Shown: positions 34,897-60,057 of the stretch, piece by piece
Numbering within the stretch: the first letter of the stretch is position 1
Layout: every line of letters begins with the position of its first letter
Assembly: GCF_963082495.1 (NCBI RefSeq)
Contig: NZ_CAUJAN010000001.1
Span: 487,701 to 551,700 of the forward strand
From: Methanobrevibacter sp. V74
GTDB taxonomy: Archaea > Methanobacteriota > Methanobacteria > Methanobacteriales > Methanobacteriaceae
Length of the DNA: 64,000 nucleotides
Direction of reading: 5' to 3'
The notes under the pieces: generated by a model
Told to the model about the DNA's origin: nothing
Databases searched by the model: none
What the model saw: only the letters and a program-made list of their open reading frames with translations
Translations under genes and position numbers: made by a program

Positions 34897-35529
34897 ATGT
34901 TTTTATTAAATAAGCTTTTTGTAACAAATAATAATTGTAGTAAGCATATCATTAAAAATACACATACTTTTAACAATACATATAATGAATCAATTTACAT
35001 CTATGTCCCTAAAAAAACTACAATCTTCAATAAAACTATTAAAAACATTAAGAACAAAGTTTATAATGGGAAAATATTTAATAATGCCACATTAACCAAC
35101 GTTCAAAAAACTTTTATTTATAATATAAAAGTTAATAGAAACCCATTTTACTTTTTACCAAATCATAACTCAGCAATAATTAATTGTAGGGAGGGGAAAC
35201 ATCATGTTAATCTCCACCCTAAGCTATGGGATATAGATAATGTAATTAATAATGTTTTGAATATAAACTTTAGAGCTTTTATTAGCTTAACTTATTTTAA
35301 TTATTTAAATGTTTATATTATCTTAAATAAAATTAAATCTTTTTTAAGTAATTTAAATGTTTTTTCAGTTAATACAAGTAAACATACTAATATAAAGTTC
35401 AATAATGTGGATTTAACTATTATTAAAAATCTTCCTTTTACAGATAAGATGATTACTTTGGTGTATAATAAAATGTGTTTTAGGTTCTATGGTTTATTTA
35501 AAAAATTAAAATGTGAGGTGTGTAATTGA
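34897..35529 (+). CDS. Hypothetical protein upstream of and overlapping the giant adhesin
   Basis: This open frame of 210 codons (MFLLNKLFVTNNNCSKHIIK) is Asn/Lys/Ile-rich with internal patterns such as NKTIKNIKNKVYNGKIFNNA. I recognise no domain and no signal peptide. No ribosome site is evident before the ATG. Its stop TGA overlaps the TTG start of the adhesin (TTGA), and the adhesin's GAGGTG ribosome site lies within its last codons, the arrangement of translationally coupled genes. It may be a real small gene, a decayed adhesin N-terminus, or a fortuitous frame. Confidence 0.45.
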   Translation: MFLLNKLFVTNNNCSKHIIKNTHTFNNTYNESIYIYVPKKTTIFNKTIKNIKNKVYNGKIFNNATLTNVQKTFIYNIKVNRNPFYFLPNHNSAIINCREGKHHVNLHPKLWDIDNVINNVLNINFRAFISLTYFNYLNVYIILNKIKSFLSNLNVFSVNTSKHTNIKFNNVDLTIIKNLPFTDKMITLVYNKMCFRFYGLFKKLKCEVCN

Positions 35530-35939
35530 TTAAAATAAATCGTAAATTAATAATCTTAGCTTTAATTATACTTATATTTTATATTGGAATAACAAGTATT
35601 TCTGCTGCTAGTTTTGATGATGTTCAAGATAAAATTGACATAGCTACTAGTGGCGATGAGGTTTATTTAGAAAATACTACCTATGATGGTAGTGGTATGG
35701 AAATTACTGTCAATAAGGATCTTACGATTCATGGTGGTAGTGCTATTGATCATAATAAAAAATCTACTTTGGATGCAAAAAGATTAAGTCGTATATTCGA
35801 TGTTACAGGTAACCATAATGTTTCATTTATTAATCTAATTCTAATTAATGGTAAAGCAAACAATAATAATGGTGGTTCAATCACTATTTCAAATAGTAAC
35901 TTTATTTTAATAAATTGTACTTTCATAAACTCATCCACT

Positions 35940-37940
35940 ACGGGTGATTCTTATAATGGTGGAGCTATATATCATAATGGTGCTGGTAGTTTTAGTGTTG
36001 TTAATTCTAGTTTTATAAATTCTTCAACTAAAGGTCAAAATTCTCATGGTGGAGATATATATCATAGTGGTGATGGTATTGGTAGTGTTGTTAATTCTAG
36101 TTTTGTGAATTCTTCAACTAAAGGTCAAAATTCTCATGGTGGAGATATATATCATAGTGGTACTGGTAGTTTTAGTGTTGTTAATTCTAGTTTTATGAAT
36201 TCTTCAACTAATGGTCAAAGTTCTCATGGTGGAGCTATATTTAATTATGGTGCTGGTAGTTTTAGTGTTGTTAATTCTAGTTTTATGAATTCTTCAACTA
36301 ATGGTCAAAGTTCTCGTGGTGGAGCTATATCTCATAGTGGTACTGGTAGTTTTAGTGTTGTTAATTCTAGTTTTATGAATTCTTCAACTAATAATATTAA
36401 TTCTCGTGGAAATCTGGAGCTATATTTCATAGTGGTGATGGTATTGGTAGTGTTGTTAATTCTAGTTTTGTGAATTCTTCAACTAAAGGTCAAAATTCTC
36501 ATGGTGGAGCTATATTTAATTATGGTGCTGGTAGTTTTAGTGTTGTTAATTCTAGTTTTATGAATTCTTCAACTAATGGTCAAAGTTCTACTGGTGGAAC
36601 TATATATCATAATGGTACTGGTAGTTTTAGTGTTGTTAATTCTAGTTTTATAAATTCTTCAACTAAAGGTCAAAATTCTCATGGTGGAGATATATATCAT
36701 AGTGGTGATGGTATTGGTAGTGTTGTTAATTCTAGTTTTGTGAATTCTTCAACTAAAGGTCAAAATTCTCATGGTGGAGATATATATCATAGTGGTACTG
36801 GTAGTTTTAGTGTTGTTAATTCTAGTTTTATGAATTCTTCAACTAATGGTCAAAGTTCTCATGGTGGAGCTATATTTAATTATGGTGCTGGTAGTTTTAG
36901 TGTTGTTAATTCTAGTTTTATGAATTCTTCAACTAATGGTCAAAGTTCTCGTGGTGGAGCTATATCTCATAGTGGTACTGGTAGTTTTAGTGTTGTTAAT
37001 TCTAGTTTTATGAATTCTTCAACTAATAATATTAATTCTCGTGGTGGAGCTATATTTCATAGTGGTGATGGTATTGGTAGTGTTGTTAATTCTAGTTTTG
37101 TGAATTCTTCAACTAATGGTCAAAGTTCTCATGGTGGAGCTATATTTAATTATGGTGCTGGTAGTTTTAGTGTTGTTAATTCTAGTTTTATGAATTCTTC
37201 AACTAATGGTCAAAGTTCTACTGGTGGAACTATATATCATAATGGTACTGGTAGTTTTAGTGTTGTTAATTCTAGTTTTATGAATTCTTCAACTAAAGGT
37301 CAAAATTCTACTGGTGGAACTATATATCATAGTGGTACTGGTAGTTTTAGTGTTGTTAATTCTAGTTTTATGAATTCTTCAACTAATAATATTAATTCTC
37401 GTGGTGGAGCTATATTTCATAGTGGTGATGGTATTGGTAGTGTTGTTAATTCTAGTTTTATGAATTCTTCAACTAATGGTCAAAGTTCTACTGGTGGAAC
37501 TATATATCATAGTGGTGCTGGTAGTTTTAGTGTTGTTAATTCTAGTTTTATGAATTCTTCAACTAATGGTCAAAGTTCTACTGGTGGAACTATATATCAT
37601 AATGGTGCTGGTAGTTTTAGTGTTGTTAATTCTAGTTTTATGAATTCTTCAACTAATGGTCAAAGTTCTCATGGTGGAGCTATATATCATAATGGTGCTG
37701 GTAGTTTTAGTGTTGTTAATTCTAGTTTTATGAATTCTTCAACTAATGGTCAAAGTTCTCATGGTGGAGCTATATTTAATTATGGTGCTGGTAGTTTTAG
37801 TGTTGTTAATTCTAGTTTTATGAATTGTTCTACTATGGGTGCTAGTTCTTCTGGGGGAGCTATATATGCTAATGGAGGTAATTTTAGTGTTGTTAATTCT
37901 AGTTTTGTGAATTCTTCAACTACTAATGTTAATTCTCGTG
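35940..37940 (+). repeat. Tandem beta-helix repeat array of the adhesin, about 90-93 bp units
   Basis: About twenty copies encode FSVVNSSFMNSSTNGQSSHG with GGA(I/T)YHNGAG or IFNYGAG. Many units are identical over tens of bases. A block around 36011 recurs in the same unit order at about 36646, an offset of 635 bp (630 plus the five extra bases at 36411), showing a higher-order duplication. Confidence 0.85.
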
Positions 37941-38410
37941 GTGGAGCCGTTTATATGGAATCTAATGCTAATTTAACTAACAATATTTTTATTGGAAGTT
38001 CTGCTATTGCTAATGGTGGAGTTATATACAATGCAGGTACTCTCTACTTAAAAAATAATACTATGGAAAATTCTACTGTAAGCAATCCAAATGGAGGTAG
38101 GGAAATTTACAATAATAATGTTGTTTATATTGCAAATTTAACTTACTTAGATAATACAACTATTAATGTAATCTATGGCCATAATATTGAACTATGGGCA
38201 AATATTACAGATGATATGGGCAACACAATCACAGGAAAAAATATAAATTTCATAATCGAGGGTAATAATTACAATGCAAATGCTATTGAAGGATTAGCAA
38301 AAATTAATTTCAATGCAATTCTTAACCCAGGAGTATATACTGTTCATGGAAATTATTCTGGTCATGGCAATAAGCCCATTATCCTTAAAAATGGCACTCT
38401 TATTATTAAT

Positions 38411-40204
38411 GCAATTGCTGATTTAACCATAACTAAAACTGTTAATGTTACTAATGCTAATTATGGTGAATACTTATCATATACAATAACTGTATTTAAT
38501 AACGGACCAAACAATGTTACTGGTGTTATTGTTAATGAAAAATTACCTGATGGACTTGTTTATGTTAGTGATAATGGTAATGGTAAATATGATCATATTA
38601 CTGGTCTTTGGACTATTGGTAATCTAACAGTCAATGATAATGTTGCTCTTGTTATTACAGTTCGTGTAAATAAGATAGGAAACATTATTAATGTTGTTAA
38701 TGTAACTGCTAATGAGTATGATAACAATACTGTGAATAATAAGGCTAATATTACTGTTCTTATTAATGCAATTGCTGATTTAACCATAACTAAAACTGTT
38801 AATGTTACTAATGCTAATTATGGTGAATACTTATCATATACAATAACTGTATTTAATAACGGACCAAACAATGTTACTGGTGTTATTGTTAATGAAAAAT
38901 TACCTGATGGACTTGTTTATGTTGTTAGTGATAATGGTAATGGTAAATATGATCATATTACTGGTCTTTGGACTATTGGTAATCTAACAGTCAATGATAA
39001 TGTTGCTCTTGTTATTACAGTTCGTGTAAATAAGATAGGAAACATTATTAATGTTGTTAATGTAACTGCTAATGAGTATGATAACAATACTGTGAATAAT
39101 AAGGCTAATATTACTGTTCTTATTAATGCAATTGCTGATTTAACCATAACTAAAACTGTTAATGTTACTAATGCTAATTATGGTGAATACTTATCATATA
39201 CAATAACTGTATTTAATAACGGACCAAACAATGTTACTGGTGTTATTGTTAATGAAAAATTACCTGATGGACTTGTTTATGTTAGTGATAATGGTAATGG
39301 TAAATATGATCATATTACTGGTCTTTGGACTATTGGTAATCTAACAGTCAATGATAATGTTGCTCTTGTTATTACAGTTCGTGTAAATAAGATAGGAAAC
39401 ATTATTAATGTTGTTAATGTAACTGCAATTAATGAGTATGATAACAATACTGTGAATAATAAGGCTAATATTACTGTTCTTATTAATGCAATTGCTGATT
39501 TAACCATAACTAAAACTGTTAATGTTACTAATGCTAATTATGGTGAATACTTATCATATACAATAACTGTATTTAATAACGGACCAAACAATGTTACTGG
39601 TGTTATTGTTAATGAAAAATTACCTGATGGACTTGTTTATGTTAGTGATAATGGTAATGGTAAATATGATCATATTACTGGTCTTTGGACTATTGGTAAT
39701 CTAACAGTCAATGATAATGTTGCTCTTGTTATTACAGTTCGTGTAAATAAGATAGGAAACATTATTAATGTTGTTAATGTAACTGCTAATGAGTATGATA
39801 ACAATACTGTGAATAATAAGGCTAATATTACTGTTCTTATTAATGCAATTGCTGATTTAACCATAACTAAAACTGTTAATGTTACTAATGCTAATTATGG
39901 TGAATACTTATCATATACAATAACTGTTAAATTTAATAACGGACCAAACAATGTTACTGGTGTTATTGTTAATGAAAAATTACCTGATGGACTTGTTTAT
40001 GTTAGTGATAATGGTAATGGTAAATATGATCATATTACTGGTCTTTGGACTATTGGTAATCTAACAGTCAATGATAATGTTGCTCTTGTTATTACAGTTC
40101 GTGTAAATAAGATAGGAAACATTATTAATGTTGTTAATGTAACTGCTAATGAGTATGATAACAATACTGTGAATAATAAGGCTAATATTACTGTTAAAGT
40201 AAAC
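38411..40204 (+). repeat. Five near-identical DUF11 repeats, 357-360 bp
   Basis: Units begin at 38411, 38768, 39128, 39488 and 39845. Each encodes ADLTITKTVNVTNANYGEYL and the rest of a DUF11-type Ig-like domain. Copies 2, 3 and 5 differ from copies 1 and 4 mainly by a single in-frame 3-base insertion each. A diverged sixth domain runs from 40205 to about 40560. Confidence 0.9.
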
Positions 40205-40723
40205 CAATTAGTTGATTTAGTAATCACAATAAGCTCTAATAAAAAAACAGTTTATATTGGAGATGTGGTTATTTGGGCAATCAAAGTCAAAAACAACGAC
40301 CCATGCGATGCTATAGATACATATGTATTGAGTAAATTACCATCAGGATTTAAATATATTAGCAGTTCAACAAACAAAGGATCTTATGATAAAAAAACTG
40401 GAAAATGGAACATTGGAAACCTATCAAAAGGAAAAAGCGTAACATTAAAAATAATTACAAAAGCAACAAGCACTGGTAATTATACCATGATTGCTTCTGT
40501 AAATAGTACTGTTAATGATACTAACTCTTCCAATAATCTGGATAATGCTACAGTTAAAGTAATTAAAAAAGAAAACAAAAATCCTGAACATAATAATACA
40601 AAACCAAATAAAAGTATAGTTAGTACTTCAAATCATTTAAAAAGTACTGGTAATCCTTTGTTAATGGTTTTACTTGCATTATTATTTATTTCAGGAAATA
40701 TCATAAGAAAATATAAAAAATAG

Positions 40724-40768: not shown

Positions 40769-42498
40769 GAGGATGTGACACGAAGTCACAATTTTTTCTA
40801 ATTTTAATTGACTAATTTTCCTTTAATTTTATATACTATGAAGTACAATCTTTTATTATAGATATTAATATTTATGGTTGTTTTATTCATGGTTTTAAAA
40901 GATGATAATATAAATCAGACTATGTTGGTCCCTATGGACTTGCGAAATTTAATTTGATTCCTGAAGATCATCCTTGCTATTTTATTAAAAATGTGGTTGA
41001 TTTAATTGATTGTTCGAAAGCAAACCAGGAATTTCGTGGAAAGCCTGGTGAATTTGCTTATCCTCGAGAATTATTGCTCAGGCTCATTTTAATGAGCGTA
41101 TTTGATGGAGGATTGTCTTCAAGAGAAATAGAAAGAAAAACAAGAACTGACATTGCATATATGTATCTTGCAGCAATGGAAAAACCATCCTATCGGACAA
41201 TTGCGCGATTTAAAGTCGATTATGCTGATTTAATCGACGAAGCATTCAAAACAACCATCAAAATTGCAAAGGAAAATGATTTAATAAAAATCCATCATTT
41301 GAGCTTGGATGGAACTAAAATCAAAGCAAAAACATCAATTAATAAATTAACTGATGAAAACCAAATTAAAATCATGAAAGAACACCTTGAAAAAAGTATT
41401 GAACTTGATCAGCAAGAAGATGATGAACTCGGAGATGAATCTGGAAATTCAGTTCCAGAATCATTAACAGACAAAGAAAAATTCAAAGAAACAGTAAAAG
41501 AAATTCAAAAATCTTCTAAAAATAATAGAAACAAAGATAAATTGCGTTCTTCAAGTTTAAATCTTTTAAAACAAGCAGAAAAAAATCCAGAAAAAGTTTT
41601 AAAAAAACTCAATGAACTCGAAGAAAAAGTAAAAGAATCACCAAAAGATGTAATCAGCATTAACGACCCTGATGCTCGCTTGATGATGAATAAAAAAGGC
41701 AAATGGGAATGGGATTACAATGCACAAATCATTGTGGATGAATACAAAGGAATAATCCTATCTTCATACATTACACAAAATCCAACAGACCATTTCGAGC
41801 TTATTCCATCAATAGAACAATTAGAAAACAATTTAACTGGAATCTATGATGAATTGCCTTCCAATTTCCAATTCAGTGCTGATAATGGATATTCAACTGA
41901 TGAAAACACAACCTATCTTGAAGAAAAAGGCTTAGAAGGATACATATTCCCCAGAAAACTCTCAAGAAAAGAAAAAAATATAATCTGTGGGAAAAACCAT
42001 TCCAAAAAGACAATTTCTGCTACGATGCAGAAATTGAAACCTACATCTGTCCTTTGGGAGAAATTTTATATCGAAGACGAACATATGAATACAAAAACAA
42101 ACAAAGAATAACTTATTGGACTAATGAATGTAAAAACTGTGTTATGAAAGAAATCTGCTGCAAGAAAAAGAATTACAGAACAATTCAAGACTATGGCAAC
42201 CCTTCCAAGATTAGAATGCAACGGAAAATGGAAACAGAATGGGCACAAAAAATCTACAAAAAACGATCAAAAACAGCAGAACTACCATTTGCACACATAA
42301 AACAAAACATGAAACTCCATGAATTCACAACAACCGGAATAAAAAACACAAATACAGAATTCAAATTATATACAATCGGACACAACCTAAAAAGAATATA
42401 CAACGAAATAAACACTAAAAACAACTAAAAATAAGAAAAAATATAAAAAATCTAAGTATAAACACAAAATTCAATTAAAAATTTTGCGTCACATCCTC
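40769..42498 (+). mobile_element. IS1182-like insertion sequence, best preserved copy (copy 2)
   Basis: The ends are GAGGATGTGACACGAA and, inverted, GAGGATGTGACGCAAAA. It lies directly after the T-run of the adhesin terminator. It is a relative of copies 1 and 3, with more diverged ends, and contains a transposase with two frameshifts. Confidence 0.8.
40889..42428 (+). pseudogene. IS1182-family transposase with two frameshifts
   Basis: The protein starts MVLKDDNINQTMLVPMDLRN at 40889. A 5-bp near-duplication (AATTT at about 40945) shifts the frame. The main frame 40954-42111 holds the DUF772-like N-terminal domain (RELLLRLILMSVFDGGLSSR), HHLSLDGTKIKAKTS with the first catalytic Asp, and YNAQIIVDE plus FSADNGYST of the DDE domain. 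A second frameshift near 41990 moves the C-terminus to the frame of 42054-42428 (YWTNECKNCVMKEICCKKK, PFAHIKQNMKLHEF). As it stands it is inactive, though only two changes separate it from a full gene. Confidence 0.85.
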
Positions 42499-46435: not shown

Positions 46436-46451
46436 ATCGATGGTGATTTTA

Positions 46452-47444
46452 ATGGATGAAAATATTAAAAAACTGGTCAAATATTCCTATTTGAATATGT
46501 ATTCTCATGTTTTAATAGCCGCATTAGATTTGAATTTATTTTCAAATTTAAAAGATTTCAAAACTAGTAGCCAAATAGCTAAAATGATGGATCTGCATGA
46601 GGACAATACAAAATATTTCCTAAATGCATTATACAGTATGGATTTTATAACTAAAAATGATGACAAATATAAAAATACTAACGCTACATCAAAATATCTT
46701 ATTGAAGACAGTCCATATTATATGGGCAACTTAATAAAAATTTTTTCCAAATTAAATGATTTTTCTAATGTAGATATTCAAAATCTAGTTAAAAATGGCC
46801 CCGATGAAAATTTTCAGTCTGGAGATGACGTTTCATTTGAGGAATTTTATAATGAGTTAAAGGATTCAGAAACAGGAATTCGTCAAGTTGAAATAATAGA
46901 CATTGTAAAAAATCTTGAGGAATATCCAAAAATAAAAAATATACTTGATTTAGGATGTGGAGCTGGACTTTTAGGTTTGGCAGTTGTAGCATCAAGAGAA
47001 GACATTACAGCTACATTATTTGACATGCCGCCGATGGCTAGTTTAATAGAGGAATGCATATCTGAAAATAATCTTGAAGACAGAGCTGAAATAAAACTTG
47101 GAGACTATAAAACAGATGATATAGGTTCTAATTATGATTTAATATTTGCAATTAATACATTAAGCCTTGCTAAAAGCGACATGGAATCAATTATCAAAAA
47201 AATTCATGATAGCTTAAATGATGGTGGAGTATTTATTGCAATTTCAGATGAAGTAGAAAGTGATTTTTCAAAACCTAAAGAAATAATTGTATCCTGGCTT
47301 CCATATGTCCTTAATGGAATGAATTATTATTTGATAAAGGATCACGTCAGGAATATTGCATTAGATGTTGGGTTTGAAGAGATTAAAGTTGAAGAAAGAT
47401 TTTTGTCTTCAGGACCTATGAGAATAAATATATTTAAAAAATAA
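46452..47444 (+). CDS. SAM-dependent methyltransferase with N-terminal dimerisation domain
   Basis: This protein of about 330 residues has an N-terminal winged-helix dimerisation domain (SHVLIAALDLNLFSNLKDFK, TSSQIAKMMDLHEDNTKYFL) and a Rossmann methyltransferase domain with ILDLGCGAGLLGLAV. That is the layout of plant-type or acetylserotonin-like O-methyltransferases (Methyltransf_2). I chose the ATG at 46452 because GGTGAT precedes it; an ATG at 46440 is in frame. A perfect DtxR-like palindrome overlaps its promoter, so metal limitation probably induces it. The substrate is unknown; methylation of a metallophore or cofactor is inferred from the operator shared with the LCM methyltransferase. 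Confidence 0.82.
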   Translation: MDENIKKLVKYSYLNMYSHVLIAALDLNLFSNLKDFKTSSQIAKMMDLHEDNTKYFLNALYSMDFITKNDDKYKNTNATSKYLIEDSPYYMGNLIKIFSKLNDFSNVDIQNLVKNGPDENFQSGDDVSFEEFYNELKDSETGIRQVEIIDIVKNLEEYPKIKNILDLGCGAGLLGLAVVASREDITATLFDMPPMASLIEECISENNLEDRAEIKLGDYKTDDIGSNYDLIFAINTLSLAKSDMESIIKKIHDSLNDGGVFIAISDEVESDFSKPKEIIVSWLPYVLNGMNYYLIKDHVRNIALDVGFEEIKVEERFLSSGPMRINIFKK

Positions 47445-48719: not shown

Positions 48720-49539
48720 ATGAGTTGTTATAAATATTGGGGCAAACTTGAAGAAATTGCTGATAAATTATCATCATGGTGATTTAGATAAATATGGTGA
48801 TTCTGCATTAGACAATGTGGATATTAATGATATTATTGAAATTTTAGATGATGTTGAAATCATTGCTCATGACAGAACAATAGATTTTGATTCTGCAAAG
48901 CACATTCTTGATGATGAAAAGATGAATAAAGCTTTAAAATTAATTAGAAAATTTTATGTTTATATTGGTGCAAGACTTGAAACAGAAAATGCATTGGAAA
49001 TTTTAAAATCTGAAAATGTTGATGAGACTTTAGATTCATTTCAATTCTATGATCGTTATGTTGGACTATTAAATAATGAAAGTCAATTAGCTAAATTTAA
49101 TGAAAATAAAACATTTGTATTTTTAGGGTCTGGTCCTCTTCCAATAACTTTAATCATGTTTAATAAATTATTTGGATGCAAATGTATCGGAATTGAACAG
49201 CAAGAAAATGTTGCCGAACTTTCAAGAAAAGTTTTAAAGAAATTAGGACTTGAAAATGAAATTGAAATTGTAGTTGGGGATGAAACTGTCATCAAATCAT
49301 TAGAATATGATATTTTAATGGTTGCCGCTTTAGCTGAACCAAAAGAAAGAGTATTTTCAAATATCTGGCAATATGTCGATGAAGGAACTCCTGTTATTTA
49401 TAGAACTTATACTGGAATGAGAGCGATTTTATATTCTCCGGTTTTAGATAAGGATACAAGAGGATTCCATAAAGAAGTAATGATACTTCCAACAGGCAAT
49501 ACAAATAACACTTCTGTTTTAATTAGAAAAATTCTTTAG
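48720..49539 (+). pseudogene. Nicotianamine synthase family protein, frameshifted near the N-terminus
   Basis: ATG at 48720, four bases after GGTGA, begins MSCYKYWGKLEEIADKLSS, matching the N-terminus of the Methanothermobacter enzyme MtNAS; a +1 frameshift at about 48775 moves the rest to the frame of 48748-49539. That part has IAHDRTIDFDSAKHILDDEK, the SAM-binding FLGSGPLPITLIMF, GDETVIKSLEYDILMVAALA and IYRTYTGMRAILYSP, all conserved in the family. The known enzyme joins aminocarboxypropyl groups from SAM to make a nicotianamine-like metal chelator. A single-base change separates this from an intact gene, so a sequence error is possible. Confidence 0.85.
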
Positions 49540-51451: not shown

Positions 51452-51744
51452 TGTGAGATGTAATGAGTAGATTAATCTTTAAGAAAATAAATGTAGTTTT
51501 TGTTGATAAAAATAAATATTTTTGAATAAATCTTAATTTAAAGTTAGGTTCAAAGCCTATAGAAGTAGATGATTAATAAATTTTAGTGTATGTTGCTAAT
51601 AATGATTTCGTATTCTCACTATTAATCCTGTTGACAATATTATTTTAGTGGATGTTAGTTCAATAGAGGCGGTGGGGGTATCTTATCAATGCTGAAAAAA
51701 AAAAAAAAATGGGGGAATTAAAATTTTCACTATTTTTTAATTTT
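51452..51744. other. Low-quality region next to the adapter artefact
   Basis: No supported gene. The stretch 51660-51745 contains GCGGTGGGGGTATC and a run of 15 A followed by GGGGG, unlike the surrounding composition, as expected from low-quality read ends. It may not truly neighbour the adhesin. Confidence 0.5.
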
Positions 51745-54700
51745 TGTCTCTTATATACATCTGAAGCTGCCGACGAAGGCTTTGGTGTAGATCTTTGCTG
51801 TCCTCCTGTCTTTTTAAAAAAAAAAACAACCCCTGCCGTCGTTCCGCCTCCTTGTGTCTCAGTTTTAACCTTAAATGTTTTCTTATTGAATTTTAAAGTA
51901 ACTTTTTTATATTTCAAATATTTATTATTTACTTTTTTCAATGAAATTCTAATTTTAATTGATTTTGCAGACTTTTTCACATTTAAGTTCTTAGCATATA
52001 TAACACTTTTAACAGTTATTTTTTTAGCTATTCTAATACTTCCATAACTTACTACAACAGCATATACTTTGGGAACTAAAGATAATTTAATAGAAGCATA
52101 TCCATTACGATCAGTTACAGCATTATAAGGTTTTTTGTTAATATATATGATAATTTTTTTTCCAATCAGAGGCATTGAACCTTGAGTTAATCTAACTTTA
52201 AACTCTGCATCACTGCTATAAAAGATAGTTAAATCATTAGCAGATAAAATTATTTTTGGAACAATAACAGTAATCATCTTACTGGAACTATTATATATCT
52301 CATCGCCAGAATAAGATACAAAAACCTGATAACTATTTGGAACTAAATTTTTAACAACAATACTTGCATGACCATTTATTAATTTGGAATTATAAGTATG
52401 ATTGTTAATTGTTACACTTAAATTTCCACTAGCATTTGCTAAGTCTAAACTAAATGTTGAATTACCATCAAATTTAATTAAATCACCAATATCAACTGCA
52501 GATCTAACAACAAATCTAACAGGAACAGTTTTTTGATTAAATCTCATATCACCGCTATAAGTTACATTTAACTTATAAATCCCCGGTCTTAAATTAGATA
52601 TTACTTTAGTAATTTTGCCATCAATTATAACTTCGTTGTAGTTAACCCCATTTAATGTAAATAAAACATTACCGGTAGTTTGATTATCTAAAGTAATGCT
52701 GAGTATTGCATTATTGCCTTGGGCAATATTAACTGAAACATTTAATTTAGAATCTTTTAAATTAGCATAGGTTAATGCAATAGCTTTATTGTCACTGGAG
52801 GTTATGTATATTAAACCATTTTTATCCATTATTGGATTGCCGGTTAAATTATATCCTAAATAGGATTTATATAAAATATTTCCATTAGAATTCATGGCAT
52901 AAAATACTTTATTTGAAGCAAAGTATAATGTTCCATCACTACCAATTAAAATACCTGATGTAATTTTCAAATCAGAAATTTTACTTTCTTTACCAGTAGT
53001 CAGGTTATAATTATATAATGTCCCTTTAGAATTAACATGATACAACCCATGTTCATTATCCAATACTAAATGATTTCCAACACCATTTGTGACCTTTGTT
53101 TTCCAGAGTTGAGCACCGGAACTTTTAAATGCAACGATACTGTCTCCCAAAACACAATAAACAATATTGTCATTGCTGATTACTGGGCGAACATTCATAA
53201 AATTACCAGATTTAATGGCATTTATTTTAAGAGTTTTTGCATTGATGATTGTAAATCTATTTTCCGCTAAAACAACAATAATCTCATTACTGACAGTAGG
53301 GCTAGCTAATGGTTTTGAATTTCCTATGCTGATTAAAGTTGGTTCTCCACCATTTTCCCACATTTTATATGGAACAATTACTAGTTTATAATCATTAGAA
53401 CCAGTTTGATATTCACTTACAATATATAAATTCGCGTTTGAATCAATGATTGGAGCAAATAAACTGGATCCCTGATAAATATTGGAGTTTCCGTATTTTT
53501 CACCACTGCTTTGGTTTATAAAGTATAATGTATCACCAGATTTTGGTGTGATAATCACATCACGTCCAATAGCAACACCTGAAAAATTACCTATTACATA
53601 ATTATTTGAATAACACCATAATTCTGTAGTTCTGTTAAATGAGTAAATTTTAGATGCCGTTACTACATAGAGATTACCTTCACTGTCAATTGCAAGATCT
53701 CCAATAATTGTATCATTAATTGGAATAACAAATGCTACCTCACCATTAGTTGTAGATTCATGTGAGGATTGACCATTGTTTTGAGGGTTTCCACCTTCAC
53801 CCGCCCATTGAGGTGTTGGATATTCTAAAACACTAAATGAAGTAGATTTGGAAACTGTATTATAATTATTACCATTATAAATGGCAACATATTCATAATC
53901 TCCAATTGCTAAATCTGGAATTATATATGTAATTTCACCAGAATATGGAATATTAATTACTTTTCCATCAATTGTAAAATTACCTTTGATCTTTGGAGGA
54001 ACTTTAATAATAATTTCTGCGTTCTGACCAATTTTGACATTAATAGATGTAATATTAAATGTTAAATCTGCTTTATTAATTGTAAAAGTATTACTTTTAG
54101 TTAAGTTAAAGTAGGTGTTGTCCCCAGTGTAGAAAACATCAATGTTTTTGTTAACTCCTGCTTCTAAACCGTAAATTAAAACCTGAGCAATACCTCCAAC
54201 AACGCTTGAAGTGTTAGATACTCCATCAATACTGACAGTTACATTACCTGTTGCATCATTATTTAAAACTATGTTGATAATGGCAACATCTCCATATGTA
54301 ATGTTTTCTGCATTAATGTTCATTGTTGCATTTAAATTGTCAACTTCGATTAATCTAGAAACTTGGCTTGGGAAATATTTATCATCACCGTTATAAACAG
54401 CTTTGATTAAATAATCACCTCTTGGAACTTTTACCATAGTATAATTTGCAAAGGAATTATTCAATATTAATATTTGCTCATTCCCATTGATTGAAAGAGT
54501 AATATTGCCAGTTGCACTATTTGTAGTTGTAATTGTTAAATTAATATCTTCCCCTACTTCAATAGCACTAATATTTAGTGTAGTTGTTGACTCATATCTT
54601 TTTACTTTAACAGAAGAGCTAACTTCTTCTGACACATACTTTTTATCACCAGAATAACTAACTACCACATTATAAGTATTGGCTTTTAAGTTACTAAATG

Positions 54701-57326
54701 TAAATAAGACAATGCTTGAATTGATAACTTTGTTTTGAGAAATGTCTCCGACGGTAACAGTAATATTGCCAGTAACATCTTTTGGAAGATGAACTTGAAC
54801 TGATAGATCATCACCGTACATAATATCATTGGTAGTTAAAGATATGTTTGGATTTGATTTTAAAAATTCAAATGATACATTAGTTTTAAAACCATTATAT
54901 TCAGCAATTAAAACACCATCACCAAAAGCAGTTAATGTGTAAATTACATTAGAATTAACATATGTTGTGTTTTTATCAGATGTGCCATTTAAAGTAAGAA
55001 TATTTAAAATAATCTCTGGTAAATTATTATATTTTGTAGAATTATTTAAATAAAAAGCAAAGTAAATTGTTGATGCATGATTATTTTCCAAGGCATAAGC
55101 ACTTGCTGTTGCATTTAAAGTTATATGATTATTGATGTTTAAATCAGGTAAAGCATTACCCCACCAATTATAATCTAAGCTAATATTATTTGTATTTCCT
55201 TCAATGATTTTAGAATTATTTAGTAGAATAGAATTCTTAATAGATGCAAATCCATTATTGTAAATGAGAACTCCATCATTATTTATGAAAATTGATTTTG
55301 AAATATCGCTGTGTTTTCCATTAACGATTTTGTCTGCATGATTATCTTTAAAAATACAGTTATTAACAACTAAATTACCATTTGCCTGATTAATAAAAGT
55401 GTTAACATTTAAATTATTAATATTCATGTTTTTTAAGGTGAATTTATTTGTATTAACAATAAATGAAGTAGAATTAGTTAATGTTGCATTACCTTCACCT
55501 TTAATTGTTACTTCATAATCAATATTTATGTTATCTTCACTGTAATTACCATCTAGAAGAATAATATTTTGACAATTACTTGCAAGTTCTAATGCTTTTT
55601 TAATTGTACTTACTGGTGTATCTCTTGACAATCCATTATTATTGTCGTTACCTAAGGTTTTAGAGACAAAAATATAATCACGGGTGCTGACAATAGTAAC
55701 ATTATTAGATAATCTGTTGGATATTGTAGGAATCACATAAACGTTACAGATATCATAATCACCAAAATCAACCGTGAAAATAGTTGAATTTACCGTTTTA
55801 ACATATTTATTATTCATATAAACATCAAATAATGTCTTATTCAGAATATCCTTATCATAACGGTTAGGAGTGGCTAAACTTATATTAATTTGTAAAGTGG
55901 CTTGTTCTTTACCTTCGCTTAACTTAGTAAGATTCAAAGTAGAAAATACAATGGAATTACCATAATAATAATTGTTAGAAATATTTAATATGGTGTTTTT
56001 TACTCTAACATTTAACACATCACCATGTTTAGTGTGGTTAATAAAAGAATTGTTTACAATAATAATGTCTGGAGATCCATATAACTCCACATCAAAAGCA
56101 GATATTGCAGTACCATAAGCAGCAGAATTAGCAATAAATGTAGTATTTAATACAGTGAGTGAACCAGCATCCATTAAAGCAATAGCTCCACCAAATCCCA
56201 AATCATTAGATAATGGGTCTGTTGACCAACAATTGTTGGCATTTTTCTTAAATAATGAATTTTCAATATAAATGTGTGGTTCACTAATATATTTACATGC
56301 ACCTATTGCACCACCACCTGAATTTGTAGTACAATTATTACCTACAAAAGTAGAATTATAAATTTGTAAGTAACCATATGTGTATAATGCACCACCATTC
56401 CAACCAGCTACGTTATCTGTGAAATTGGAATTATAAATTGTTGTGTTTCCACCACCATGAGTATGTATTGCTCCAGCCCACCAATAAGACCTATTTTTAA
56501 AAAATGTAGTATTATAAACAGTCAACTTACCACAATTATTAATACAACCTGGTTCGGTTCTTGCATAATTATTTTCAAAATAACAATTACGGACAGTCAT
56601 ATTTGTAGATTTCACACTATTTGGATCATAAATACCAATAACTCCATAACCACTAGTACAATTTACAAAACTACAATTATCTATAATTGCCTGTCCTTTT
56701 TTGAGATGAACAATAGTGGCATGACCCCAGTTTGCATTTATATCATGAAAATAACAATTTTTAATAACATTTGTTAATTTACCTCCCATTTGAATAAAAA
56801 TAGCATCAGGTTGGAAATATGAATATATCCATTTAAATGTTATATTATCTAATGTTAAACTTTTACGAACATCATTTTCTACAATAATTGCAACATATTC
56901 AATTTGAGTTGGATTAGATGAAGAATCTCCAAAGTATGAACCCTCACTTCCAATAATTTTCACATTATTTTTAATTTTTATTTGATAATTGGGATTACTT
57001 GGATCAGTTGGGTAAAAATTTGTATTTTCTTTTAGTTTTAAAACATAGTTTTTATCATTTAAAGAACAATAATATTGTAATTCATCCCAATTATTAACTA
57101 CAATAATATCATTAGTGCCTCTAGTTTGTTCATTGGGAGAGGCTTTGAGTACATTATTATCATTTAAATTATTTTTGTCTAAATCAACAGTATCATTAAC
57201 TGTTTCTATTGGAGAGTCAAAATCTGTTGATGTAATATTAGTATCTTCAATTTCATTTGCAGAAACATTACTTAAAACTAAAATCAGCGCAAAGAAAATT
57301 AAGATGAAAAAAAGTTTTTTATTCAA
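51660..57326 (-). CDS. Very large adhesin with beta-helix, Ig-like repeats and a PQQ-type propeller; 3' end unreliable
   Basis: The start is TTG at 57326, set by GAGGATGTGA just ahead; it gives (M)NKKLFFILIFFALILVLSNV, a signal peptide. A beta-helix region follows (about 70-540 from the start), with HTHGGGNTTIYNSNFTDN, then several Ig-like domains (YDVVVSYSGDKKY and similar YSGD or YNGD blocks). Residues about 1180-1510 form a PQQ-like beta-propeller (DSEGNLYVVTASKIY, GSDGTLYFASNKVFYAMNS). Further Ig-like domains end in KKVTLKFNKKTFKVKTE. After that the frame reads through adapter sequence (AASDVYKRQ), so the true C-terminus, from about 51865 on, is missing. The adhesin ending at 57391 lies directly upstream. 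Confidence 0.85.
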   Translation of the reverse strand: MNKKLFFILIFFALILVLSNVSANEIEDTNITSTDFDSPIETVNDTVDLDKNNLNDNNVLKASPNEQTRGTNDIIVVNNWDELQYYCSLNDKNYVLKLKENTNFYPTDPSNPNYQIKIKNNVKIIGSEGSYFGDSSSNPTQIEYVAIIVENDVRKSLTLDNITFKWIYSYFQPDAIFIQMGGKLTNVIKNCYFHDINANWGHATIVHLKKGQAIIDNCSFVNCTSGYGVIGIYDPNSVKSTNMTVRNCYFENNYARTEPGCINNCGKLTVYNTTFFKNRSYWWAGAIHTHGGGNTTIYNSNFTDNVAGWNGGALYTYGYLQIYNSTFVGNNCTTNSGGGAIGACKYISEPHIYIENSLFKKNANNCWSTDPLSNDLGFGGAIALMDAGSLTVLNTTFIANSAAYGTAISAFDVELYGSPDIIIVNNSFINHTKHGDVLNVRVKNTILNISNNYYYGNSIVFSTLNLTKLSEGKEQATLQINISLATPNRYDKDILNKTLFDVYMNNKYVKTVNSTIFTVDFGDYDICNVYVIPTISNRLSNNVTIVSTRDYIFVSKTLGNDNNNGLSRDTPVSTIKKALELASNCQNIILLDGNYSEDNINIDYEVTIKGEGNATLTNSTSFIVNTNKFTLKNMNINNLNVNTFINQANGNLVVNNCIFKDNHADKIVNGKHSDISKSIFINNDGVLIYNNGFASIKNSILLNNSKIIEGNTNNISLDYNWWGNALPDLNINNHITLNATASAYALENNHASTIYFAFYLNNSTKYNNLPEIILNILTLNGTSDKNTTYVNSNVIYTLTAFGDGVLIAEYNGFKTNVSFEFLKSNPNISLTTNDIMYGDDLSVQVHLPKDVTGNITVTVGDISQNKVINSSIVLFTFSNLKANTYNVVVSYSGDKKYVSEEVSSSVKVKRYESTTTLNISAIEVGEDINLTITTTNSATGNITLSINGNEQILILNNSFANYTMVKVPRGDYLIKAVYNGDDKYFPSQVSRLIEVDNLNATMNINAENITYGDVAIINIVLNNDATGNVTVSIDGVSNTSSVVGGIAQVLIYGLEAGVNKNIDVFYTGDNTYFNLTKSNTFTINKADLTFNITSINVKIGQNAEIIIKVPPKIKGNFTIDGKVINIPYSGEITYIIPDLAIGDYEYVAIYNGNNYNTVSKSTSFSVLEYPTPQWAGEGGNPQNNGQSSHESTTNGEVAFVIPINDTIIGDLAIDSEGNLYVVTASKIYSFNRTTELWCYSNNYVIGNFSGVAIGRDVIITPKSGDTLYFINQSSGEKYGNSNIYQGSSLFAPIIDSNANLYIVSEYQTGSNDYKLVIVPYKMWENGGEPTLISIGNSKPLASPTVSNEIIVVLAENRFTIINAKTLKINAIKSGNFMNVRPVISNDNIVYCVLGDSIVAFKSSGAQLWKTKVTNGVGNHLVLDNEHGLYHVNSKGTLYNYNLTTGKESKISDLKITSGILIGSDGTLYFASNKVFYAMNSNGNILYKSYLGYNLTGNPIMDKNGLIYITSSDNKAIALTYANLKDSKLNVSVNIAQGNNAILSITLDNQTTGNVLFTLNGVNYNEVIIDGKITKVISNLRPGIYKLNVTYSGDMRFNQKTVPVRFVVRSAVDIGDLIKFDGNSTFSLDLANASGNLSVTINNHTYNSKLINGHASIVVKNLVPNSYQVFVSYSGDEIYNSSSKMITVIVPKIILSANDLTIFYSSDAEFKVRLTQGSMPLIGKKIIIYINKKPYNAVTDRNGYASIKLSLVPKVYAVVVSYGSIRIAKKITVKSVIYAKNLNVKKSAKSIKIRISLKKVNNKYLKYKKVTLKFNKKTFKVKTETQGGGTTAGVVFFFKKTGGQQRSTPKPSSAASDVYKRQKLKNSENFNSPIFFFFSALIRYPHRLY
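51745..51860. other. Illumina Nextera adapter artefact embedded in the assembly
   Basis: The plus strand reads TGTCTCTTATATACATCTGA, AGCTGCCGACGA, then an 8-base index-like AGGCTTTG, GTGTAGATCT, a degraded P5 part and a run of A. This is the order of a Nextera read-through, with a few mismatches. The minus-strand translation contains AASDVYKRQ, a peptide well known from adapter contamination. Confidence 0.93.
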
Positions 57327-57366
57327 AAAAATCACATCCTCAACATTTTTTATAAAAAAAATATTG

Positions 57367-57387
57367 GAAGAGTATTTTCTACTCTTC
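57367..57387 (-). terminator. Hairpin terminator between the two minus-strand adhesins
   Basis: GAAGAGTA pairs with TACTCTTC; on the minus strand it is followed by CAATATTTTTTTT. It follows the stop of the 57391-60057 gene and precedes the TTG start of the next, so they are separately transcribed or attenuated. Confidence 0.75.
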
Positions 57388-57390
57388 TTT

Positions 57391-60057
57391 TTATTTAACA
57401 TTTATTTTGATTGTTTTGTTGCTTTCTTTGTATGTTTTGTCTCCTTTGAATTTAATTTTTGCTGTATATTGTCCTTTTTTGTTCAGTTGGATTTTAAATG
57501 TTGCTGTCCCTCTTTTGTTTATTTCTGCTTTGTAGGTTTTACCTTTGATGGTTAGTGTTATTTTTTTGCCCGCTTTGAGGTAAGTTTTACCATCAATTGG
57601 ATTTTTAACCGTGTTTAAAGTGACTGTTATTTTTTTAGTTTTTGTTTTAACTTTAAATATTTTGTTGGTTGCTTTGATTGTGGTTGTTTTTTTGTTTAGT
57701 GTTATTTTGGAAAATTTCACAGGTGCAGCATTGTAGTTGTTGTCTCCTGAGAAGGATATTATGCATATGTATTTGTTAGCATTTGCTAAGTTGATTTGTA
57801 TGCTTGCTTTACCGTTGTTATCAGTTTTTATGTTGTATATTACATTGTTTATAACAATTTGGACGATTTTATTTGCTATTGGATTGCCATTAACATCTTT
57901 TAATATTGCATAAAAGATTGCTCCACGTTCACCGGCATAGTAATCATTAGCAAGACCAACAAATTCAGATCCAACATCCACTAAAGCATCTGCCTTTTTA
58001 ATAGTTAAATTAATGTTTTCGCTTGTTTGTATGTAATTACCATTAACAAGAGTGGTTAATTCAACAATATATTTGCCAGAATCTAAAGTGTTAATTACAA
58101 CTTCAGAAGGATTTCCAATTGTTTTTAAAACTTCAACACCATCTTTTAAGACTCTAACACTAACACCAGTGGCATTAACTGTATTAACTGGAATTACAAT
58201 GTTTTGACCGTAAATAAATTCCATATCCTCAGCACTTATTGATGAAGTGCTTTTCTCAACATTAACATTATCAATTTTTTCATTTGAAGTGTATTTATCA
58301 GATCCGCTGTATGAAATATTAACTGGATAATTAGTAGCATTTAAATTACTAAAACTAACAACTATGGTTTGATTTGCATCTAAAACCCTTGTTTCATTAC
58401 CAAATTTAATTGTAACTGTACCCACCACATCTTCTGGAAGTTCAATAGATATAACTGCATTTTCACCAACAACAACACTGCTAGGAATAATGGTGTTGAA
58501 AACATAATCACTAATTTTAGAAACGGTTAAAGTAGTAGTATTAAACCCATGAACTCCCATACCATTTAAGGTAACATTAACAGTATAGATTCCTTCTTTT
58601 AAAATATCTGGGATAATATAAGCAAATGAACTGGAATTATTAACAGTTAAATTGTAGGTTTTGTTATATTTATCATTATAAACGACAATACTAACAGTAC
58701 CATTCAGTACTTGGGAGAAATTACCTGTAATCTTTTGTTCCTCACCATAATAAACACTCAAAGGATTTAACAGCATATTAGTATTGTTAAATTCTAAATT
58801 GATTATTGCCTTATTTAATTTTGCAGTTATTTTATGTTCAGTGGAATTTGTATTGTAAATAACTCTAAATGTGCCATTTTTTAAAATAGCAGTTTCAGAA
58901 ATATTTCCAGTCATTGAAGATAATTGAACAATCATATCTCCTAAGTTTTCAATTCCATCGGTTGTGCTATCGTTCCACATTAGTTTTCCAATAATTTCAT
59001 AAGTATTATCGTCAATGTAATTTTCAGAAACTGAAAATATTGCATATCTAGTAAGTGGAACTACATATCCATCTACCCAAGAACCTCCAGAATTTACTGC
59101 ATAACCATGTGCTGGGAACATGTAAGAAGGTATTTCATTTTGTCCAAACCAAATACTATCAAATGAATTATTTTTAGTAGTAACTATCACGCCACTAGTT
59201 AAACCCCCCAATAAAGTGCAATATTCAAATTGCATACCATTAAGAACCGAAGTTATGTAACCGTTATTTACTTTACATTTGATTAGTTTTATATTTTCAC
59301 TGTTATCAAAAATAGGGCTTGCTTTATACATATTGAAAGTACAATTATTAAATACTCCTATATTAACCCTACTTTTATATTGATAAAATGGAAAAAAAAC
59401 GTGCAATCCTGGACTGTTATCATCCAATCCCCATCCACTTCCATCAAATATAAGATTTGAATAGGTAAAATTTACTAACGGTCCTGTTAAACTAATTCCC
59501 GTAATTAGGGGATTGCTAAAAATTGTAGCCCAATTTAAATCAGCATCAGTTATATTCAAACTCTTAATAACTACATTTCCCATTCCCTGAATTTTTAAAT
59601 TACTCGTATTAAACTTTAAATGAGAATCCAGTACATAGCTTCCTTCAAAAATATTTAAAGTTACTTTATTTTTTCCATCACTAACATTTGCACAAGCTAA
59701 TTTCAGTGTTGCAAATGGGTTTTCATATGATCCATTACCTCCATCTGAGGTGGTGTTTTTACCAACATATATAATATACTCTTCATCTGAAACATTACGA
59801 TTAGAGGATTCTTCACTTTCTACATCATCATTTTGAGAATTTTCTAATAAATTATCAGCAGCATTTGTACTTTGATTTAAAATAGGTTCTGTGTACTTTT
59901 CGCATGTTAAATTATTTTCTGAATTGGAAACATCATCCATGTCTCCATCATCATCAGACACATCAACATCTACATCCATTGCACTAGCTGCACTAATACA
60001 ACAAAGCAAAAGAGCAAATATTGTTAAAAACATTATTACTTTTGTTTTTTCAATCAT
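57391..60057 (-). CDS. Adhesin-like protein with beta-helix and Ig-like domains
   Basis: The ATG at 60057 (MIEKTKVIMFLTIFALLLCC) follows GGTGA by five bases; a further ATG at 60069 is in frame. After the signal peptide comes an acidic stretch (MDVDVDVSDDDGDMDDV). A pectate-lyase-like beta-helix follows at about 95-330 (NPFATLKLACANVSDGKNKV, LNIFEGSYVL), then about four Ig-like domains (PVNISYSGSDKYTSN, CIISFSGDNNYN). The C-terminal domain is basic (YLKAGKKITLTIKGKTYKAE) and ends TIKINVK with no membrane anchor, suggesting wall binding by charge. A 26-bp palindrome lies 21 bp upstream of the start. Confidence 0.87.
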   Translation of the reverse strand: MIEKTKVIMFLTIFALLLCCISAASAMDVDVDVSDDDGDMDDVSNSENNLTCEKYTEPILNQSTNAADNLLENSQNDDVESEESSNRNVSDEEYIIYVGKNTTSDGGNGSYENPFATLKLACANVSDGKNKVTLNIFEGSYVLDSHLKFNTSNLKIQGMGNVVIKSLNITDADLNWATIFSNPLITGISLTGPLVNFTYSNLIFDGSGWGLDDNSPGLHVFFPFYQYKSRVNIGVFNNCTFNMYKASPIFDNSENIKLIKCKVNNGYITSVLNGMQFEYCTLLGGLTSGVIVTTKNNSFDSIWFGQNEIPSYMFPAHGYAVNSGGSWVDGYVVPLTRYAIFSVSENYIDDNTYEIIGKLMWNDSTTDGIENLGDMIVQLSSMTGNISETAILKNGTFRVIYNTNSTEHKITAKLNKAIINLEFNNTNMLLNPLSVYYGEEQKITGNFSQVLNGTVSIVVYNDKYNKTYNLTVNNSSSFAYIIPDILKEGIYTVNVTLNGMGVHGFNTTTLTVSKISDYVFNTIIPSSVVVGENAVISIELPEDVVGTVTIKFGNETRVLDANQTIVVSFSNLNATNYPVNISYSGSDKYTSNEKIDNVNVEKSTSSISAEDMEFIYGQNIVIPVNTVNATGVSVRVLKDGVEVLKTIGNPSEVVINTLDSGKYIVELTTLVNGNYIQTSENINLTIKKADALVDVGSEFVGLANDYYAGERGAIFYAILKDVNGNPIANKIVQIVINNVIYNIKTDNNGKASIQINLANANKYICIISFSGDNNYNAAPVKFSKITLNKKTTTIKATNKIFKVKTKTKKITVTLNTVKNPIDGKTYLKAGKKITLTIKGKTYKAEINKRGTATFKIQLNKKGQYTAKIKFKGDKTYKESNKTIKINVK

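Follow-up and report, generated by a model that had tools for sequence, protein, structure and literature searches.

An Illumina Nextera adapter lies inside an adhesin-like gene in the window, that is, in the whole 64,000-nucleotide stretch of Methanobrevibacter DNA analyzed here. This is very probably an assembly artefact in which an untrimmed Nextera read tail replaced about 39 codons of the gene, both flanks being parts of that same gene. The genome, rated 99.97% complete, comprises 2,299,297 bases and 15 contigs; the window occupies positions 487701-551700 of contig C1, up to its right end, and the named relatives were all Methanobrevibacter at 11 of 11 loci.

Adapter Sequence in the Window

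Ungapped comparison of positions 51744-51813 with the Nextera P5-side read-through adapter gave a match at 50 of 62 non-index positions. This score lies about 10.6 standard deviations above all placements in the window, where the runner-up among 127,862 placements, counted over both strands, scored 30 (mean 15.3, standard deviation 3.3). The first-pass annotation had claimed that the Nextera elements follow one another here with few mismatches and had proposed a comparison with the Nextera adapters; that comparison returned this long ordered match, and the order is present as it had been described. On the plus strand, AT-rich DNA up to 51743/44 is followed by the adapter parts, a poly-A run, a GC-rich tail, and clean adhesin coding sequence, as follows:

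51693..51729, minus strand: putative 3' untranslated region belonging to the adhesin-like gene, on the left side of the artefact (together with the gene end, resembles sequence found where homologous adhesin genes terminate in other genomes of the genus)
51730..51744, minus strand: probable true end of the adhesin gene, with KIKK codons and a TAG stop in a frame that differs from the called ORF (sequence, and spacing compared with homologues)
51744..51762, plus strand: Nextera mosaic end, 17/19 (sequence match)
51763..51776, plus strand: Nextera P5-side primer part GAAGCTGCCGACGA, 13/14 (sequence match)
51777..51784, plus strand: i5 index AGGCTTTG, one mismatch to the reverse complement of S508 (index comparison)
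51785..51794, plus strand: P5 flow-cell part GTGTAGATCT, 10/10 (sequence match)
51795..51813, plus strand: degraded P5 end, 10/19 (sequence match)
51816..51826, plus strand: poly-A run of 11 bases (read from the letters)
51827..51860, plus strand: GC-rich tail to about 51860, probably sequencing noise (adapter match no better than in shuffles)
51861..57401, minus strand: true coding portion of the adhesin-like gene, with Big_3_5 and PQQ_2 (ORF, domain and homologue comparison)

Base 51744 can be assigned to the gene end or to the adapter. The GC content of 51744-51860 was 45%, versus 28% window-wide. The minus-strand ORF that runs through the adapter contains the peptide SSAASDVYKRQ. AASDVYKRQ had been put forward as a recognized sign of this contamination; the peptide is indeed there, but a full-text literature search returned 0 papers for it.

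The mosaic end by itself is weak evidence. With up to three mismatches it was found once in the window, where shuffles gave a mean of 0.02 (2 of 100 shuffles with a match); 12 of its bases with up to one mismatch matched the genome 8 times and the reversed control 17 times. A 16-base part of the P7 adapter, with up to three mismatches, matched at two other adapter copies alone (C2 and C4, described below), both exactly, and its reversed control matched 5 times, while the control for the long P5 pattern gave 0 and 0. A 31-base P7-side pattern with up to three mismatches had 0 matches in the genome, but a longer BLAST query did recover copies. Since reversed controls can be commoner than the short adapter parts, these parts prove nothing, and the weight rests on long ordered matches and on the other copies. 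The degraded state of the adapter, increasing toward its end, counts against the artefact reading.

Further candidates around the adapter were rejected. The tail at 51825-51861 was no convincing additional adapter (89 of 500 shuffles were equally good), a second adapter at 51656-51730 reached a best score that 30 of 500 shuffles also attained, and no hairpin was found at 51688-51732 (z −0.28).

Adhesin-Like Gene and Its Probably Overwritten C-Terminus

The affected gene is predicted to encode an adhesin-like protein, named so by type, in which a domain search detected Big_3_5 above cut-off and PQQ_2. Homologues were found in 60 of the 60 genus genomes searched. The called ORF (51660-57401, 1913 residues) reads on through the artefact in a frame different from that of the probable true stop. 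Twenty non-self homologues were printed, with some genes represented twice because two collections contain them. In 18, the protein extends a further 42-43 residues beyond the site at which the window sequence departs from the homologues; the remaining two (L067 and L011) were aligned at an internal repeat, and a second L011 alignment ends like the others. Extraction of distinct C-termini, with a pattern that permitted 36-46 residues, yielded 16; KT is followed by 43 residues in 15 of them and by 42 in L013. A conserved C-terminal stretch of adhesin-like proteins is therefore hidden by the artefact at this gene.

The length of the hidden part was compared with the homologues. Between the last good codon (51863-51861) and the minus-strand AAA ATT AAA AAA TAG (51744-51730) lie 116 bases, and 39 codons, or 117 bases, are expected between the last good residue and the KIKK-stop. 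This comparison shows an apparent overwriting of about 39 codons, almost length for length. The C-terminus had been described as unknown, which held for these roughly 39 codons, but the final four codons and the stop, reading KIKK, seem to be present at 51744-51730 in another frame.

A consensus that blended true and adapter bases was also considered and rejected: the 13 adapter mismatches (index included) matched 15 homologues at 0.42, against 0.37 in shifted registers, a shift of +2 gave 0.56, and the tail reached 0.36 at best.

Left Flank of the Adapter

A query covering 51452-51862 was searched against 67 genomes of the genus, the own genome included; as is usual for AT-rich DNA, every one of the 67 had a match at E up to 1. 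The six best non-self matches (E 9.6e-8 to 3.4e-5) covered query positions 234-301, i.e., window 51685-51752, and are likewise AT-rich and short. It is therefore their location at gene ends that gives them weight. Five of the six (L077, L078, L079, L080, and L082) fall at the end of an adhesin-type gene reading KFKK, KIKK, or NVKK, the L079 gene end being a reading of printed DNA and the adhesin-like character of L079 and L080 resting on visual inspection. At the DNA level, the sixth match (L081) likewise ends in KIKK-stop. In G052, G046 (C140), and G037 (C1), the distance from the aligned adhesin end to the start of the matched 3' DNA is 126 bases, compared with 125 in the window, and the relative orientation is the same. 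Among the matches listed, no copy of the adapter part was found in the 66 other genus genomes.

Judged by this likeness, the simplest view of the left flank is that the same adhesin-like gene really ends there, in which case the tail replaced true bases. The earlier suspicion of a false join to the left is thus probably wrong, as the flank matches sister adhesin 3' ends in the same orientation and with a spacing as if nothing long had been inserted.

Further Adapter Copies in the Genome

The genome contains four Nextera copies, one P5-side copy in the window and three P7-side copies recovered by BLAST with the full P7 adapter:

C1:1908-1983: P7-side copy, 79%, degraded, inside xseA
C2:75-151: P7-side copy, 99% over 76 bases, at the contig start, in a Csm6/Card1-like gene
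C4:247563-247639: P7-side copy, 99% over 76 bases, in a licD-family gene

At E up to 10, the full P7 query hit four places, namely these three copies and the mosaic end in the window. The full P5 query hit the window copy and five fragments of at most 20 bases, two of which are mosaic ends of P7 copies. The C2 and C4 copies are exact apart from one inserted base each and have a common index, CTCTCTAC, which is N707. The index of the C1:1908 copy says little because it has four mismatches to N707, the nearest of 12 indices, and five to the next. The index in the window is nearest to S508 among eight, with one mismatch, the next being at five; among random 8-mers, a fraction of 0.0033 would lie this close to one or another of the eight i5 indices. 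The names S508 and N707 are those used in PMC7589761. A poly-A or poly-T run follows each of the four copies, and at C2 the contig starts with noise beyond the poly-T. One barcoded library explains all four copies. The first-pass proposal of a read-through artefact is strongly supported by these four copies, two of them near perfect with a common i7 index.

The flanks of the P7-side copies were also analyzed. Both flanks of C1:1908 match Exonuc_VII_L, at the overlapping profile positions 1-174 and 161-314, and both flanks of C4 match LicD, at 1-106 and 161-227, with about 54 profile positions missing over about 134 bases. By these profile matches, the partners at both internal P7 copies look right. 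The gene broken at C2 matched Csm6 HEPN (E 1.3e-14), and Card1 CARF was just below cut-off. The profile overlap at xseA looks more like an insertion than an overwriting and, together with the missing positions in licD, confines the length-for-length overwriting to the adhesin site.

The mosaic end is exact in none of the four genome copies, the changes falling within bases 11-16 and, in the window copy, also at base 1. In C2 and C4, the sole deviation is the inserted base within mosaic-end bases 11-16, a different one in each. In scans of viral_contigs that required exact primer and flow-cell parts, the mosaic end was exact in 119 of 124 P5 and 122 of 128 P7 matches, among the matches listed, where two of the 11 exceptions show no mosaic end. 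C2 and C4 are the genome copies that have the same parts exact, and both deviate in the mosaic end. A tentative reading, drawn from very few copies and with overwriting shown at one site only, is that the genome copies might be survivors of an adapter filter that removes exact matches, so that error-bearing reads pass, replace true bases, and create false pseudogenes. If so, these would escape exact-match screens.

Comparison with Known Adapter Contamination

The window copy resembles Illumina Nextera or Nextera XT read-through in that mosaic end, P5 primer part, index, P5 end, and poly-A stand in library order, and the P7-side counterpart with N707 occurs elsewhere in the same genome. It differs in lying inside a contig and a gene and in carrying errors, whereas the viral_contigs matches are mostly at locus ends (among the matches listed, at most 100 bases separate 123 of 124 P5 and 125 of 128 P7 from an end of the fetched locus). 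BLAST of 51744-51813 at E up to 1e-3 matched 29 records in a phage set of 50,697 and 9 in a plasmid set of 72,556. The one matched record that was inspected, Escherichia phage vB_EcoM_WFK (MK373775.1; L320, 400-469), was deposited as a "complete genome" and has a Nextera P5 adapter, an index, and poly-A inside a gene; the annotation splits its long tail fibre gene into two pieces and places a hypothetical protein across the adapter. Unlike the window copy, that of WFK has an exact mosaic end, two flow-cell mismatches, and another index. PMC6120340 reports Nextera XT and Trimmomatic for two Methanobrevibacter genomes, M. thaueri with 39 contigs and M. woesei with 10. No paper on the present case was found in the literature on adapter contamination, as judged from listings.

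Other Features of the Window

Several features away from the adapter were recorded. At 38405-40174, five head-to-tail DUF11 units of 357 bases show no substitution over their shared length, and a single in-frame insertion of 3 bases occurs, at differing places, in each of copies 2, 3, and 5. Since short reads by themselves can hardly resolve such an array, either a hybrid assembly or a misassembly of the array is possible. The overlapping ORFs 35526-36473 and 36470-40723 share the same repeat text and have the appearance of a single gene that a frameshift has divided, and a transposase at 40954-42428 is split over two frames (DUF772/DDE_Tnp_1, then DDE_Tnp_1_6). A nicotianamine synthase-like gene lies at 48748-49539 (NAS, E 2.1e-21), with a methyltransferase gene nearby (46440-47444).

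Origin of the Adapter Stretch and Alternative Explanations

Reads of short inserts run into the adapter and then into poly-A and noise beyond the adapter end. In the window, a read of a short Nextera fragment would have run past its insert end at about 51743-51744, through the P5-side adapter with its index and P5 end, and on into poly-A and noise. Left untrimmed, this tail would then have entered the consensus and displaced the codons near the 3' end of the adhesin-like gene, presumably where true coverage was low; the two flanks would be truly adjacent.

Alternatively, the artefact could include a false join, as the first-pass annotation had it, with unrelated contig ends glued together via the adapter tail. 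Adapter copies can occupy contig ends, as at C2:75-151, and a close orthologue (86-87%) of the oxidoreductase, present in two of 59 other genomes (G010 and G012), has no adhesin downstream there, a gene order that is uninformative for the join. The orientation and spacing of the sister adhesin 3' ends matched by the left flank, and the finding that the flanks of C1:1908 and of C4 each match a single family, make such a join unlikely.

A real insertion in cellular DNA, such as a Tn5/IS50-type end or a transposon-mutagenesis construct, could account for a mosaic-end-like sequence. The IS50 ends that occur in nature are not identical to the mosaic end, and such an insertion would have to bring primer, index, and flow-cell parts in library order followed by poly-A, as well as P7-side copies with one library index elsewhere in the genome. 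The window has a single mosaic-end match with no second facing end, and no transposase was seen among ORFs of at least 60 residues at 51452-51862, so that this origin is extremely improbable. Chance similarity in AT-rich DNA finds support solely in the mosaic end being no commoner than its reversed control, and its probability is negligible given the distance of the adapter score from all other placements and the other adapter copies, which contradict it. Replacement of gene sequence by an untrimmed read tail is the best explanation.

Implications

The feature is an ordinary data error, with no biology in it. A genome rated 99.97% complete still has adapter within its contigs, and the adhesin-like, xseA, licD-family, and Csm6/Card1-like genes look truncated or frameshifted at the adapter and would be taken for pseudogenes falsely. 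Anyone relying on this assembly would be misled about gene loss, the C-termini of adhesins, or unusual patches rich in GC.
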